Shown here: piece after piece, positions 8,134 to 12,053 of the stretch
How positions within the stretch are numbered: position 1 is the first letter of the stretch
How the letters are laid out: every line of letters begins with the position of its first letter
DNA from: Photobacterium phosphoreum
Lineage (GTDB): Bacteria > Pseudomonadota > Gammaproteobacteria > Enterobacterales > Vibrionaceae
Assembly: GCF_002954725.1 (NCBI RefSeq)
Contig: NZ_MSCQ01000003.1
Span: forward strand, 1 to 64,000
DNA: 64,000 nucleotides
Reading direction: 5' to 3'
Position numbers and translations under genes: made by a program
Notes under the pieces: model-generated
What the model saw: the letters and a program-made list of their open reading frames with translations, nothing else
Databases searched by the model: none
Told to the model about the DNA's origin: nothing

Positions 8134-8643
8134 TTACTTGGCCATATATTCTTGAATCATAAGTCGACCGCGATGAATCCGACTTTTAACCGCCATTCTG
8201 GTTAATAATAATTTGTCTGCAATTTCACCAATAGAAAGCTCTTCTAAGTCCCTTAATAAAATAACCGCACGATATTTATCAGGTAAAGAGTGAATAGCCG
8301 CAATAAGATCTAACCGTAAATCATTATTTGAATAATAAGAAAATAGCTCTTGGTAATCATCGGGCATTTCATCTAACTTATGCGTTTGCTTCATTAATTT
8401 GGCGCATTCTCTTTTGACAATAATAAATAACCAGCCTGGAAATGCTTCCACTGTTTTTAAAGTACCAATGCGCCGCCAAATAATTGCAAGAGATTCTTGT
8501 ACTGCATCATCAACATCATTCAACGAACATTGTTTAAATGCCATTTTTTTTAATGTCGGTTGCCAATTAACCAACAATTTTTCAGTCGCTTGTTGATTAC
8601 CATTACGGGCTTCTTCGATTAAAAAGTAGCGATCATCCATCAT
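8134..8643 (-). CDS. ECF-type RNA polymerase sigma factor
   Basis: A 169-aa sigma-70 family protein of the extracytoplasmic function class: region 2 near residues 15-85 (DAVQESLAIIWRRI, then PGWLFIIVKR) and a region 4 helix-turn-helix near 115-160 (LSIGEIADKLLLTRMAVKSR). It lacks regions 1 and 3. It is the last gene of a three-gene operon, and its ATG overlaps the stop codon of the membrane protein upstream by one base (TGATG), which implies translational coupling. AGAGGAAT supplies the Shine-Dalgarno. No gene for a classical zinc-binding or RseA-like anti-sigma factor is next to it, so the membrane protein or the DUF302 protein may hold that role (inference). Target promoters are unknown. 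Confidence 0.9.
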   Translation of the reverse strand: MMDDRYFLIEEARNGNQQATEKLLVNWQPTLKKMAFKQCSLNDVDDAVQESLAIIWRRIGTLKTVEAFPGWLFIIVKRECAKLMKQTHKLDEMPDDYQELFSYYSNNDLRLDLIAAIHSLPDKYRAVILLRDLEELSIGEIADKLLLTRMAVKSRIHRGRLMIQEYMAK

Positions 8644-9323
8644 CAGATTCCTCTTACATAAAATGACGCGATAATTTTATTACTATGCTGAGCAATGAAT
8701 CCAAATGTCACTCCCCATGCAATATGGGCTAAGTAGACCGTTACAGGAAAAGCAATGGGAGCAAATTGATGGCCGAAATAACCAACACCTAGAATATTCA
8801 TTACCGGGCTAACCATAAATGTCGTGCCAACCGCAATGGAAAATAAGACTCCAAGCCACCACCTACCCTTGCTTTTACCAACCAGAGCTAAATAAATAAA
8901 AGTAAATCCAATCCCATTCCAGAAATGATCTCCCCAACCGACCATGTTTGACCACCAATTAGGTCCAACCATAAATTGGTCTGTGAGTTTAACTCCCATC
9001 AACATCGGTAAAGAGCCAGGCATTGCATGAAAATAACTAAAGCCAATACTTCTGACTATTTCCATACTAACAGTACCAGCACCGCCTGCTAGAATGGATA
9101 ACAACATCAAGTTAACCAATGACTTATTAGACGACCATGCTGCGTAAATTAGAATACTAAACCATACTAATACTGCAGGAACAATGGTATGAACACCTAG
9201 CCAATGAAAGGTATACAAACCCGTGGCAGATAACGTAAACGCAAGAGGAGAAATAGATGCCGCGACTACAGCTATTAATATTAACGTTACATCACGACTA
9301 TTTGATAGCTTTAATCGCTGCAT
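8643..9323 (-). CDS. Polytopic inner-membrane protein of unknown function, coupled to the ECF sigma factor
   Basis: I do not recognise a named family. The 226-aa protein has about six hydrophobic helices (roughly 11-31, 46-63, 68-88, 133-149, 154-176, 186-211). Seven histidines (H40, H45, H99, H133, H185, H200, H213) lie in or near the membrane segments, together with a Trp-rich stretch at 123-135 (NWWSNMVGWGDHFW). That pattern would suit metal, haem or quinone binding, but this is inference only. The gene starts 11 bp after the DUF302 gene and overlaps the sigma gene by one base, so the three are almost certainly co-transcribed. It could sense an envelope signal for the sigma factor or be an effector. 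Confidence 0.75.
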   Translation of the reverse strand: MQRLKLSNSRDVTLILIAVVAASISPLAFTLSATGLYTFHWLGVHTIVPAVLVWFSILIYAAWSSNKSLVNLMLLSILAGGAGTVSMEIVRSIGFSYFHAMPGSLPMLMGVKLTDQFMVGPNWWSNMVGWGDHFWNGIGFTFIYLALVGKSKGRWWLGVLFSIAVGTTFMVSPVMNILGVGYFGHQFAPIAFPVTVYLAHIAWGVTFGFIAQHSNKIIASFYVRGI

Positions 9324-9334
9324 GACTTATTGCC

Positions 9335-9799
9335 TTATTTAGTTGCTGCTTGAGTAGCAATATTCATAATTTTCTTTTCTAACATTTGGCCTGGCATGAC
9401 TAATTTAGGCGAGATCATGCCAAGTTGTTCTGCAGGGTTAAACCATCCAATCCATGTTTTATTATTTTGATTCCATACGTATAAACGTAACGGTAACACC
9501 GCACCCGCAGCTGGATTCATACTAAATACTTTTTTCGCCATTTCAGGATTACCAATTAAAAAGCTCGTTCCTTTTAAATCTAACCCTGTCATTGATAACA
9601 CCTTACCTTGATCTATTTTCCCCATCACCATCATTTGATGACGACTGGTTGCTGTTTGTATCGCAGCTGTAGTCTCGGTAAATGTTTGTTGCGATTCTAC
9701 TTTGGTAAATGAGGTAACAGGAGCCGCAATAGCACTTTGACTTGCCATAAAGAATACCGCACTCATTAGCGTTGATAGTAAAATATTTTTTGTTTTCAT
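9335..9799 (-). CDS. Exported DUF302 domain protein
   Basis: 154 aa with a clear signal peptide (MKTKNILLSTLMSAVFFMASQSAIA, then APVTSF), so the mature ~129-residue protein is periplasmic. The mature part looks like a DUF302 domain: the stretch FLIGNPEMAKKVF, then VLPLRLYVWNQ, then a TWIGWFNPAEQLG segment. DUF302 proteins are small alpha/beta proteins with no settled biochemical role. It is the first gene of the operon with the membrane protein and the ECF sigma factor. AAGGTG is placed 8 nt before the ATG. It has no cysteines or lipobox. Confidence 0.8.
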   Translation of the reverse strand: MKTKNILLSTLMSAVFFMASQSAIAAPVTSFTKVESQQTFTETTAAIQTATSRHQMMVMGKIDQGKVLSMTGLDLKGTSFLIGNPEMAKKVFSMNPAAGAVLPLRLYVWNQNNKTWIGWFNPAEQLGMISPKLVMPGQMLEKKIMNIATQAATK

Positions 9800-9975
9800 T
9801 TGGTGTCACCTTATTGATAGTAAGTAAAATAATTTGTTTCTACTTTAAAGAGCAATGAGATCACCAAAAGGATTCAATATATTTCATCTTTTTTTCATTT
9901 ATCACAAAAATAAAATATAACTAATTGATACTTATAATATTAACAATTAATTTTTTTAAATTTTAAGCATAAAAA

Positions 9976-10052: not shown

Positions 10053-12053
10053 CTAAATATTACGTGCGACTTCATAAGCATCCCAAACCGCATTCATGAT
10101 ATTTGACACTTTACGTGCATCACCAATAAGGTAGGTATCTTTACCACGACTTAAAATCTCATCATGGAGATCGTTAACGCTTGAATAACCGACGGCAATA
10201 CAAACATTATCTGCAACTATTTCTTTAACACCAGTAGCAGTTTCGATATGCGCATGGCCATTTTTATAACCAACAAACTTACTGCTGGTCATAATGTTAA
10301 CTTGTGCTTCTTCCATTAAATCAAGCAGCATTGATTTGTTGGCCCAGTTAGTATCAGCACCGCCATCCATAACTTTGGCGAGGTATTCAACCACGGTTAC
10401 TTGCTTGCCTTGGTTTTTCAGCCATAGTGCAACTTCACAACCCACTAAACCACCACCGATAATCACCACGTTATCGCCAACAGGCTTTTTGGCTAATAAA
10501 ATATCATCTGCGCTGCAAATTTGTGGTTCATCAATACCTTCGATATTGCGTAAACGCACAGGCACAGAGCCTGTCGCAATGATCACCGCTTGCGCATCAT
10601 CTAACTCTTTTGAGTCTTTATCAATAATGGTATTTAAATACATTGGTACAGCAAGTCGCTCTAGTTCAACACGGTACCAATCAAGCAATTTCTCATCGGC
10701 TTTTTTAAAATCAGGTGCGGCAGCTTCATAAATATGGCCACCAATTTGATCTGATTTTTCAAATAGCTTCACTTCGTGACCTGCAAGTTTTGCTACTCGA
10801 GCACTTTCAAGACCTGCAATACCGCCACCGATCACGATCACACGTTTAGGCTCTAGTGCTTTTTCAATACTGTAAATTTTTTCACGACCACAAGCAGGGT
10901 TCACTGAACATGAAATTGGCTTATGGTTGAAAATACGTTGTAAGCAGCCATCATGACAACCGATGCAGGGACGAATTTGCTCTTCTCGATTTTTCATGAC
11001 CTTATTTGGCCACTCAGGATCAGTCAATAACGGACGTGCTAGGCCTACAAAGTCAATTGAACCGTTTTTAATTGAGTCTTGAGCAAGTTGAGGATCACCC
11101 ATCTTACCGCCCATAATGATAGGCACATTTACCACATCTTTGAGTTTTTTTACAAACGGAAGGTATAGACCATCTTTAGCATATAGCGGTGGGTGGGCCC
11201 AATACCATGCATCATAAGAGCCAGTATCAGCATTAAAGCCATCATAACCGGCTTTTTCAAGGATCTTTGCTAATTCAAGACCTTCTTCAGTATCACGACC
11301 AGATTCTTTAGCCGCAACATTAATACCGCCTTTACCTAATTCTTTGATAAAAGAACGAATACTATAACGTACGGTAACGGGGTAGTTTTCACCCGCACCA
11401 CGACGAATCGCTTTCAATATTTCAATAGGAAAAGTAGCACGTTGCTCTAAATCACCATTAAAGCGATCAGTTCGATCTTTGTTAAACACTGACATGGTAA
11501 ACTGATCGGCTAAATACCCCTCGTGAACTGCATGCAATTCGATACCGTCAAAACCGACTTTTTTAGCAATTGCCGCCGCTTCTTCAAAACGAGAGATAAT
11601 GCGCTCAACTTCTTCAGTTGTTAACGCACGGCACATCACTTCTGGATCCCAATAATTTGGTACTGCTGTTGGTGCCACTGGCTGAGTTTCAAGTAACGTT
11701 GGCTTCGCTACACGCCCAAGACCTGCTGATACTTGCAAAAATATTTTTGCGCCATAAGAATGCACACGCTCAATCATTTCATAACATGAATTTTCAAAAG
11801 CAGTAGGGTTATGAGTTACACAGGTAAATGTCGGCATTTTCATGCGTTCAATTTCATTTTCTACCTTCGTAAAACCCGTAATAATAAGACCAACACCGCC
11901 CTTCGCTCTTTCAACAAAATAATCAGCAGCGCGTTGATTAAATTCGCCTTCACGACCAGCAAGTCCCATCAGACCCATAGGTTCCATTACGATTCGGTTT
12001 TTAATAGTTACGCTACCAATTTTCATTGGTGTAAAGAGTTCTGATCTATTCAT
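10053..12053 (-). CDS. NADH:flavin oxidoreductase / enoate reductase family (Fe-S flavoenzyme)
   Basis: 666 aa with the three-part layout of 2,4-dienoyl-CoA reductase (FadH), clostridial 2-enoate reductases and bile-acid enzymes such as BaiCD. There is an Old Yellow Enzyme TIM barrel (~1-345), a [4Fe-4S] cysteine set CIGCHDGC plus CSVNPAC (starting near residue 363), and FAD and NAD(P) Rossmann folds with VIVIGGGIAGLESA and NVVIIGGGLVGCE. It should pass electrons from NAD(P)H through FAD, the cluster and FMN to an activated C=C bond. The substrate cannot be told from sequence. The barrel differs from FadH enough that I do not use that name. The gene stands alone, with no fatty-acid or catabolic neighbours. 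Confidence 0.88.
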   Translation of the reverse strand: MNRSELFTPMKIGSVTIKNRIVMEPMGLMGLAGREGEFNQRAADYFVERAKGGVGLIITGFTKVENEIERMKMPTFTCVTHNPTAFENSCYEMIERVHSYGAKIFLQVSAGLGRVAKPTLLETQPVAPTAVPNYWDPEVMCRALTTEEVERIISRFEEAAAIAKKVGFDGIELHAVHEGYLADQFTMSVFNKDRTDRFNGDLEQRATFPIEILKAIRRGAGENYPVTVRYSIRSFIKELGKGGINVAAKESGRDTEEGLELAKILEKAGYDGFNADTGSYDAWYWAHPPLYAKDGLYLPFVKKLKDVVNVPIIMGGKMGDPQLAQDSIKNGSIDFVGLARPLLTDPEWPNKVMKNREEQIRPCIGCHDGCLQRIFNHKPISCSVNPACGREKIYSIEKALEPKRVIVIGGGIAGLESARVAKLAGHEVKLFEKSDQIGGHIYEAAAPDFKKADEKLLDWYRVELERLAVPMYLNTIIDKDSKELDDAQAVIIATGSVPVRLRNIEGIDEPQICSADDILLAKKPVGDNVVIIGGGLVGCEVALWLKNQGKQVTVVEYLAKVMDGGADTNWANKSMLLDLMEEAQVNIMTSSKFVGYKNGHAHIETATGVKEIVADNVCIAVGYSSVNDLHDEILSRGKDTYLIGDARKVSNIMNAVWDAYEVARNI

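Follow-up and report, generated by a model that had tools for sequence, protein, structure and literature searches.

Introduction

On the minus strand of the 64,000-nucleotide stretch of Photobacterium phosphoreum DNA analysed here (contig NZ_MSCQ01000003.1; "the window" means the whole of this stretch), genes for a DUF302 protein, a polytopic membrane protein and an extracytoplasmic function (ECF) sigma factor form one operon without a recognisable anti-sigma factor. Among the closest described counterparts are the ECF16-type systems, in which an ECF sigma factor goes with a membrane-associated regulator: RpoE7-EcfR7 of Sinorhizobium meliloti, SigF-NrsF and EcfF-OsrA, the last two of which we take to belong to ECF16. 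Unlike these systems, the pair of DUF302 and membrane protein also occurs without this sigma factor. Copper-sensing ECF sigma factors of the CorE type sense directly through cysteines and carry a cysteine-rich C-terminal extension, whereas the window sigma factor ends after region 4 and has its cysteines in region 2; direct sensing by cysteines recurs in one of the explanations weighed below.

We favour, with confidence slightly better than even, the reading that this is a self-contained, self-amplifying ECF operon whose sigma factor would read mainly a single promoter, and in which the pair would protect against soft metals, thiol-active compounds or oxidants and either the membrane protein or the cysteines of the sigma factor would serve as the brake. 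The novelty lies in the setting, an ECF group that swaps partners and has a signature promoter and an invariant cysteine pair. An earlier annotation of the same DNA (the first-pass annotation) had singled out the operon, and its interpretation is partly supported below, but it had missed the signature promoter, the YgaP-like partner of the sister operons, a bufferin-type relative and the cysteine pair.

EcfF-OsrA responds to H2O2 according to the sections of PMC3420878 devoted to it; OsrA needs cysteines, whereas the window membrane protein has none and gives no Pfam match to DUF1109/NrsF. RpoE7 counts DUF692 and DUF2063 genes among its targets, which are of the kind found in bufferin clusters, and its promoters read TGTAAC...CGAA (RpoE7 sections of PMC6180224), as against GAATCC...CTCTT in the present group. 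EcfQ (ECF33) resembles the present operon in its conserved upstream region and in having, in the part of PMC3420878 that treats it, no anti-sigma gene nearby; it is oxidant-induced, and its authors propose another, unknown regulator (same part). Class 33 was rejected as the group of the window sigma factor because the promoter boxes differ (GCAGAC/TAACAAT for EcfQ in that part of PMC3420878, GAATCC/CTCTT here). A further likeness, one of description, is to S. meliloti RpoE8 (ECF29), which by the passages of PMC6180224 concerned lacks a candidate anti-sigma factor and has a group motif upstream of its own gene, an amicyanin gene nearby and the promoter GGGAAC/GCATCCAA.

The operon

Genomes and loci carry our own numbers (G and L, respectively); the genome of the window is G000. 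The genes and the elements around them are:

9335..9799, minus strand: DUF302 protein, 154 amino acids, with a Pfam match; N-terminus resembling a signal peptide by eye
8643..9323, minus strand: polytopic membrane protein, 226 amino acids; the DUF302 gene lies directly upstream
8134..8643, minus strand: ECF sigma factor, 169 amino acids, with Pfam and NCBIfam matches
9847..9875, minus strand: candidate ECF-type promoter GAATCCTTTT-N13-CTCTTT, 47 nucleotides before the DUF302 start codon
8077..8110, minus strand: terminator-like stem at the operon end, after the sigma gene
10003-9976, minus strand: terminator-like stem separating the operon from the flavoenzyme gene upstream

Coordinates and gene order, with the sigma gene last, are those of the first-pass annotation, as are the gap of 11 base pairs (9324-9334) between the DUF302 and membrane genes and the one-base overlap between the membrane and sigma genes (TGATG at 8643). 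Its description of a genuine ECF operon with two envelope proteins was borne out by family searches, in which the first protein matched DUF302 (PF03625; 47.3 bits, cut-off 23) and the last matched Sigma70_r2 (27.9 bits, cut-off 24) and Sigma70_r4_2 (60.1 bits, cut-off 25.7) in Pfam as well as TIGR02937, sigma70-ECF, in NCBIfam (57.2 bits, cut-off 42.9); only regions 2 and 4 are present, as in an ECF sigma factor. The claim that classical anti-sigma features are missing held as well, with no match to zf-HC2, DUF1109 or any other anti-sigma family at an expectation value (E) of 1 or better when the three proteins were searched against Pfam. The search for terminator-like stems gave three in the stretch and an average of 1.3 in its shuffled versions. 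Beyond the upstream stem, positions 10053-12053 encode an Old-yellow-enzyme-like flavoenzyme whose relatives include bilirubin reductase and BaiCD, with scores of 393 and 391 bits that fall below the curated cut-offs of 750 and 825.

By codon comparison with Photobacterium G012, each of the three genes is under purifying selection. The ratio of nonsynonymous to synonymous substitution rates (dN/dS) is 0.154 for the DUF302 gene, and the corresponding ratio of uncorrected proportions (pN/pS) is 0.150 for the sigma gene and 0.227 for the membrane protein gene, dS being saturated for both. Between G010, where the sigma gene is intact, and G012, the sigma dN/dS is 0.037.

A close sigma factor (79-100% identity) was found in 5 of 52 genus genomes (G000, G022, G012, G427 and G010), the other matches being at 21-33%. 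The neighbourhood search proposed in the first-pass annotation found the whole trio kept in all of these but G010, in two chromosomal settings: in G000 and G022 an amino-acid antiporter gene and a decarboxylase gene adjoin the trio (by eye), and in G012 and G427 it lies elsewhere. A DUF6789 gene stands 3' of the sigma gene in G012. G010 lacks the DUF302 and membrane genes, apart from an apparent short remnant of the DUF302 end (by eye), but keeps the promoter, the sigma gene and the downstream DUF6789 gene. DUF6789 occurs in 5/5 sigma-positive and 2/47 sigma-negative genomes of the genus, a co-occurrence that may reflect shared ancestry.

The signature promoter

The candidate promoter consists of a -35 box GAATCC, a T-tract and a -10 box CTCTT. 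When the DNA upstream of the operon was aligned among the window, G022, G012, G427 and the Edwardsiella pair described below, GAATCCTTTT-N13-CTCTTT was common to all five, the rest having diverged. A search of 11 genomes or records gave six exact matches: one before each of the four trios, one before the Edwardsiella plasmid pair and one before the G010 sigma gene, there at a distance of 260 nucleotides. Shortened to GAATCCTTTT-N13-CTCTT, the pattern has ten exact matches in 18 genomes, one in each of ten, all before the operon of a sigma factor of the same group; about 0.75 would be expected in these 100 Mb by our own arithmetic with equal base frequencies. Allowing up to one mismatch gave 29 sites, 13 of them at a group-sigma operon, against 5 sites for the reversed control. 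The motif was also seen upstream of many YgaP-linked operons whose sequences were read, and in G815 a one-mismatch site precedes the run of genes whose last member is the sigma gene.

Scored out of 16, ten of the 20 operons outside Photobacterium reach 14 or more. In first-order Markov simulations of five upstream regions, 14 or more was reached in 0/2000 runs for each region, 13 in 0-14 and 12 in 26-74. Before pairs that lack an adjacent trio sigma gene, the Edwardsiella site scores 15 and the other seven 9-13. The promoter motif predicts autoregulation of the sigma operon.

The sigma factor and its group

By sequence similarity the sigma factor has relatives across Proteobacteria. Group members, at 37-56% identity, were found in 11 further phylum genomes out of 398 (E < 1e-20; 13 loci), in one further class genome out of 369 (at 1e-18), and in G815; the 398 and 369 here, like the 60 relatives below, include the window's own genome. 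Some sigma match at 1e-5 was found on 182 plasmid records, and of the six examined, two share one gene set. In a tree of 30 sigma factors those of Photobacterium join G815 with support of 100/99. The group may already be described or numbered in the published ECF classification.

Directly before the sigma gene, 16 of 20 distinct loci outside Photobacterium have a gene for a small YgaP-like membrane protein of 65-77 amino acids with the motif G[FY]CP[MA]CA, and all six of the partners scanned were confirmed by Pfam as YgaP-like_TM (PF11127). Its stop codon lies from 15 nucleotides before to 4 nucleotides after the sigma start (start codons were chosen by script). The exceptions are L125, with an apparently frameshifted YgaP-like copy (by eye), L131, L088, where genes of the haloacid dehalogenase (HAD) and carboxymuconolactone decarboxylase families take its place, and G815. 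The window sigma gene, too, has no YgaP-like gene directly upstream; the same slot is occupied by the larger membrane protein, 226 amino acids with at least five helices and no cysteine as compared with 65-77 amino acids and a GxCPxCA motif. The window operon shares the promoter motif and the cysteine pair with the group and lacks the YgaP-like partner.

In G815 (L122:5651-8913) the group sigma gene comes last in a run that also has Sel1-like repeats (by eye) and that contains DUF2282, MNIO (over two frames) and DoxX, the last three being the make-up of bufferin clusters; such clusters chelate copper according to the portion of PMC12452194 on this point. On the enterobacterial plasmids L088 and L089 (4523-6504) the HAD and carboxymuconolactone decarboxylase family genes, themselves preceded by a TetR gene, stand before the sigma gene; genes resembling them were noticed by eye close to the G815 pair and close to the sigma gene of Cupriavidus.

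Two cysteines, C39 and C80, are invariant in 24/24 group sigma factors, and the window sigma factor has no others. They make up two of the 16 invariant residues after the start methionine, in an alignment whose median pairwise identity is 45% (lowest 35%) and whose members were gathered by overall similarity, not by cysteines. Among eight other ECF sigma factors from Photobacterium and pair-bearing genomes, C39 is present in 2/8 and C80 in 0/8. We take C39 to lie at the end of region 2.1 and C80 in the region 2.4 helix, and presume from general knowledge that the two are close in the fold.

A phage origin was considered and set aside: 13 phage records have an ECF-like match, at 23-32% identity, and were taken as distant ECF kin. 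A literature search that covered mostly non-subscription papers found no link of DUF2892 with an ECF sigma factor or of YgaP-like with a sigma factor, and its DUF6789 match concerned nematode receptors only.

The DUF302/membrane-protein pair

Of 60 relatives, among which 36 belong to the genus, 3 have the membrane protein; it also occurs in 4 of 369 class genomes and 3 of 5 genomes of the family of G415, with strong matches in 4 of 398 phylum genomes. It is found on one of 72,556 plasmid records, from Edwardsiella tarda, and no phage record matches it. Twelve weaker matches to the membrane-protein profile, all to family f19 (E 1e-5 to 5e-4), cover about 60 positions within frames of 457-518 amino acids and were set aside as chance likeness between membrane segments. 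Immediately upstream of the membrane gene, and in the same orientation, comes a DUF302-type gene in 12/12 intact loci (the window, G022, G012, G427, Edwardsiella, G415 twice, G815, G206, G540, G548 and G583; the broken G209 copy was left out), its homology being judged by alignment, with Pfam on two. No group sigma gene is adjacent in 8/12 of these loci. With the sigma profile, a group member was found in G815 alone (E 2e-57) among the seven pair-bearing genomes outside Photobacterium, that with the broken G209 copy included; the best match of the other six was 1.5e-9 or weaker, or none, and the Edwardsiella plasmid had none. Because pair loci and genomes outside Photobacterium mostly lack a group sigma, the pair is, judged by its occurrence, a conserved, independent module that in Photobacterium has come to stand under a sigma factor. 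Eight of twelve loci lacking an adjacent group sigma also means that the pair is probably the output of the operon. The first-pass annotation had left open whether the two envelope proteins sense a signal or serve as the response, and the balance now shifts towards response.

Three further observations concern these loci. G415 has two near-identical copies of the pair, distant on one chromosome (L029:10266-11551 and L030:8846-10134). Close to one of them are frames that resemble transposases (by eye), suggestive of a recent duplication or of mobility. On the Edwardsiella plasmid (L012:4720-10037) the pair, with its signature promoter, lies between insertion sequences, with no sigma match on the plasmid. 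ECF-like sigma genes (by eye) together with zf-HC2 genes lie near the pair in G206 (L031:7512-8383, convergent) and in G815 (L057:11301-12150); the group profile picked up neither sigma.

The window membrane protein has no Pfam and no NCBIfam match and shows five clear helices in a simple hydropathy scan. Its seven histidines, rightly counted in the first-pass annotation and taken there as a hint of metal, haem or redox sensing, stand beside ten tryptophans and no cysteine, and their number varies from 4 to 9 over the 11 homologues aligned (4 in G012 and G427). Only H133 and H200 are invariant among them; the invariant polar residues include E88, R91, H133, N136 and H200. A haem or metal sensor by virtue of histidine-richness was therefore rejected, five of the seven being unconserved, and H133 and H200 remain the candidates. 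The C-terminal part of the protein is probably a distant relative, at best, of DUF6789 (PF20587). In a Pfam scan of seven homologues, that of G540 reached 33.1 bits (cut-off 27.1), four fell below at 13.8-22.6, and two had no match. The likeness is weak for the window protein itself, which had no DUF6789 match in the scan. Profile comparison with small DUF6789 proteins gave E 0.00089 at a probability of only 23%, and a thinner profile gave E 0.0069 and 5.6%. MerF was rejected as a relative (E 0.23 only), and so was an NrsF-type anti-sigma identity, there being neither a DUF1109/NrsF match in Pfam nor a cysteine.

The DUF302 proteins of the pair are cysteine-free and exported by the look of their N-termini, and contain 4.3-9.4% methionine after residue 28; the window protein has 7.9% and zero cysteines. 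The homologue at L055 matches DUF302 in Pfam at 31.3 bits, and a relative of solved structure is 1q9u (E 1.4e-10). A second DUF302 gene of the window's genome (L001:1399-2281, on G000:C2) is preceded by a gene for a small membrane protein that belongs to no Pfam family, and the promoter-pattern search listed no motif within two mismatches there. In Acidihalobacter yilgarnensis a DUF302 gene is among the elements flanking a heavy-metal gene cluster, as given in the part of PMC7760498 that describes the cluster; DUF302 is also dealt with in a section of PMC6515984.

Discussion

In the self-amplifying operon that we favour, the sigma factor would read mainly one promoter genome-wide, the one before its own operon, and would raise the DUF302 protein, the membrane protein and itself together. 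Such a positive loop would need a brake. This is most likely either the membrane protein, whose gene runs into the start of the sigma gene and sits where sister operons have the YgaP-like gene, or the sigma factor's own invariant cysteine pair. The DUF302 and membrane proteins would be the output, an envelope protection module, and the signal would most likely be an oxidant, a thiol-active compound or a soft metal, for instance Cu(I). This signal class is proposed because of the bufferin-type genes of G815, the methionine-rich DUF302 proteins and the neighbours of the pair and of DUF6789 genes. The G206 pair has genes for a CopB-multicopper oxidase, a cupredoxin and a YHS protein no more than 6 kb away, and one for a flavin disulphide reductase (MerA-like by eye) nearby; EgtD/EgtB-like genes flank one of the two G415 copies and, by eye, the G815 pair; and elsewhere in the genus the genes next to DUF6789 encode an AhpC/TSA redoxin (L170) and a cytochrome b561 (L166). 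The heavy-metal context of DUF302 in the A. yilgarnensis section of PMC7760498 fits the same class.

Several points weigh against this reading. The signal class, likely as it seems, rests on neighbourhoods in other organisms. The shortened promoter pattern was chosen after the upstream sequences were known, so its presence before group operons is no fresh test, while its absence elsewhere is. No site within one mismatch lies at the sigma operon in five of the 18 genomes (G622, G636, G767, G265 and G468), and four of the 20 sister operons score 11-12 and six 8-10; as the simulations reach 12, middle scores prove nothing alone. G548 and G583, which have no group sigma, score 13 before their pairs, so that the motif may not be wholly specific for the group sigma. 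The G815 pair promoter scores 9 although a group sigma gene lies 12 kb away. With the group sigma missing from six of seven pair-bearing genomes outside Photobacterium, the membrane protein is not a dedicated anti-sigma factor everywhere. The branch uniting the whole sigma group has support of 91/97 and a long-branch warning. Finally, within two mismatches the full pattern finds 32 sites in the 11 genomes or records, as compared with 11 for its reversed control.

A larger regulon in Photobacterium was considered and rejected, sites at two mismatches being no evidence for one in view of that control. There are four further such sites in the window's own genome, two inside reading frames and two with no frame of 80 amino acids starting within 400 nucleotides downstream; in G012 a two-mismatch site lies 16 nucleotides before a regulator-like frame (L070), and a similar site is listed in G022.

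The two leading alternatives are two forms of the brake, so their probabilities overlap with that of the self-amplifying operon. The better of them, which we hold possible but short of even, is that the overlapping membrane protein is an integral-membrane anti-sigma factor of the NrsF/OsrA kind, holding the sigma factor at the membrane until DUF302 or the residues E88, R91, H133 and H200 meet the signal. The overlap of the two genes (one base in the window, 19 nucleotides in G012 and G427) fits this, as does the small membrane protein that fills the slot before the sigma gene in 16 of 20 sister loci; all five sigma-positive Photobacterium genomes keep a membrane protein beside the sigma factor, in G010 the DUF6789 protein, and the membrane-associated anti-sigma factor OsrA is a precedent (OsrA sections of PMC3420878). 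It is opposed by the many pair loci and genomes without a group sigma, by the persistence of the G010 sigma without this membrane protein, and by the lack of a DUF1109 match and of cysteines in the window protein.

Somewhat less probable is that the sigma factor itself senses the signal, C39 and C80 in region 2 binding a soft metal or forming a disulphide and thereby switching promoter binding, so that an anti-sigma factor is not needed; on balance we consider this unlikely. The strict conservation of both cysteines at so low an overall identity, and their rarity in the other ECF sigma factors, argue for it. So does their retention without the YgaP-like gene (L131) or without both that gene and a convincing promoter motif (L088 and L125). 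On the other hand, most of the other ECF sigma factors compared have valine or alanine at these positions, and the role of the cysteines could be structural. Broader and more doubtful still is the extension of this idea to the whole group, as Proteobacteria-wide one-component ECF sigma factors with a two-cysteine metal or oxidant switch in region 2, one signature promoter, no anti-sigma factor and interchangeable envelope cargo, be it a YgaP-like protein, DUF302 with a DUF6789-like protein, or a bufferin cluster. Least probable is that the sigma factor is a passenger under an unlinked regulator acting by transcription or proteolysis, its neighbours being ordinary cargo, for which EcfQ (class 33), without an anti-sigma gene nearby in the EcfQ part of PMC3420878, is a precedent and which suits an accessory element found in 5 of 52 genus genomes, but against which stands the exact promoter, present only at the sigma factor's own operon in ten genomes of several families and thus pointing to autoregulation.

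How ECF sigma factors without an anti-sigma gene stay off is an open question, called a mystery for RpoE8 by its authors in the RpoE8 passages of PMC6180224, and it is the question that this group addresses. With a minimal operon and mainly one target, the promoter, the brake and the signal of the group would each be amenable to reporter work. For the DUF302 and DUF6789-like proteins, both of unknown function, the self-amplifying operon would provide a regulatory setting and a likely class of stress.

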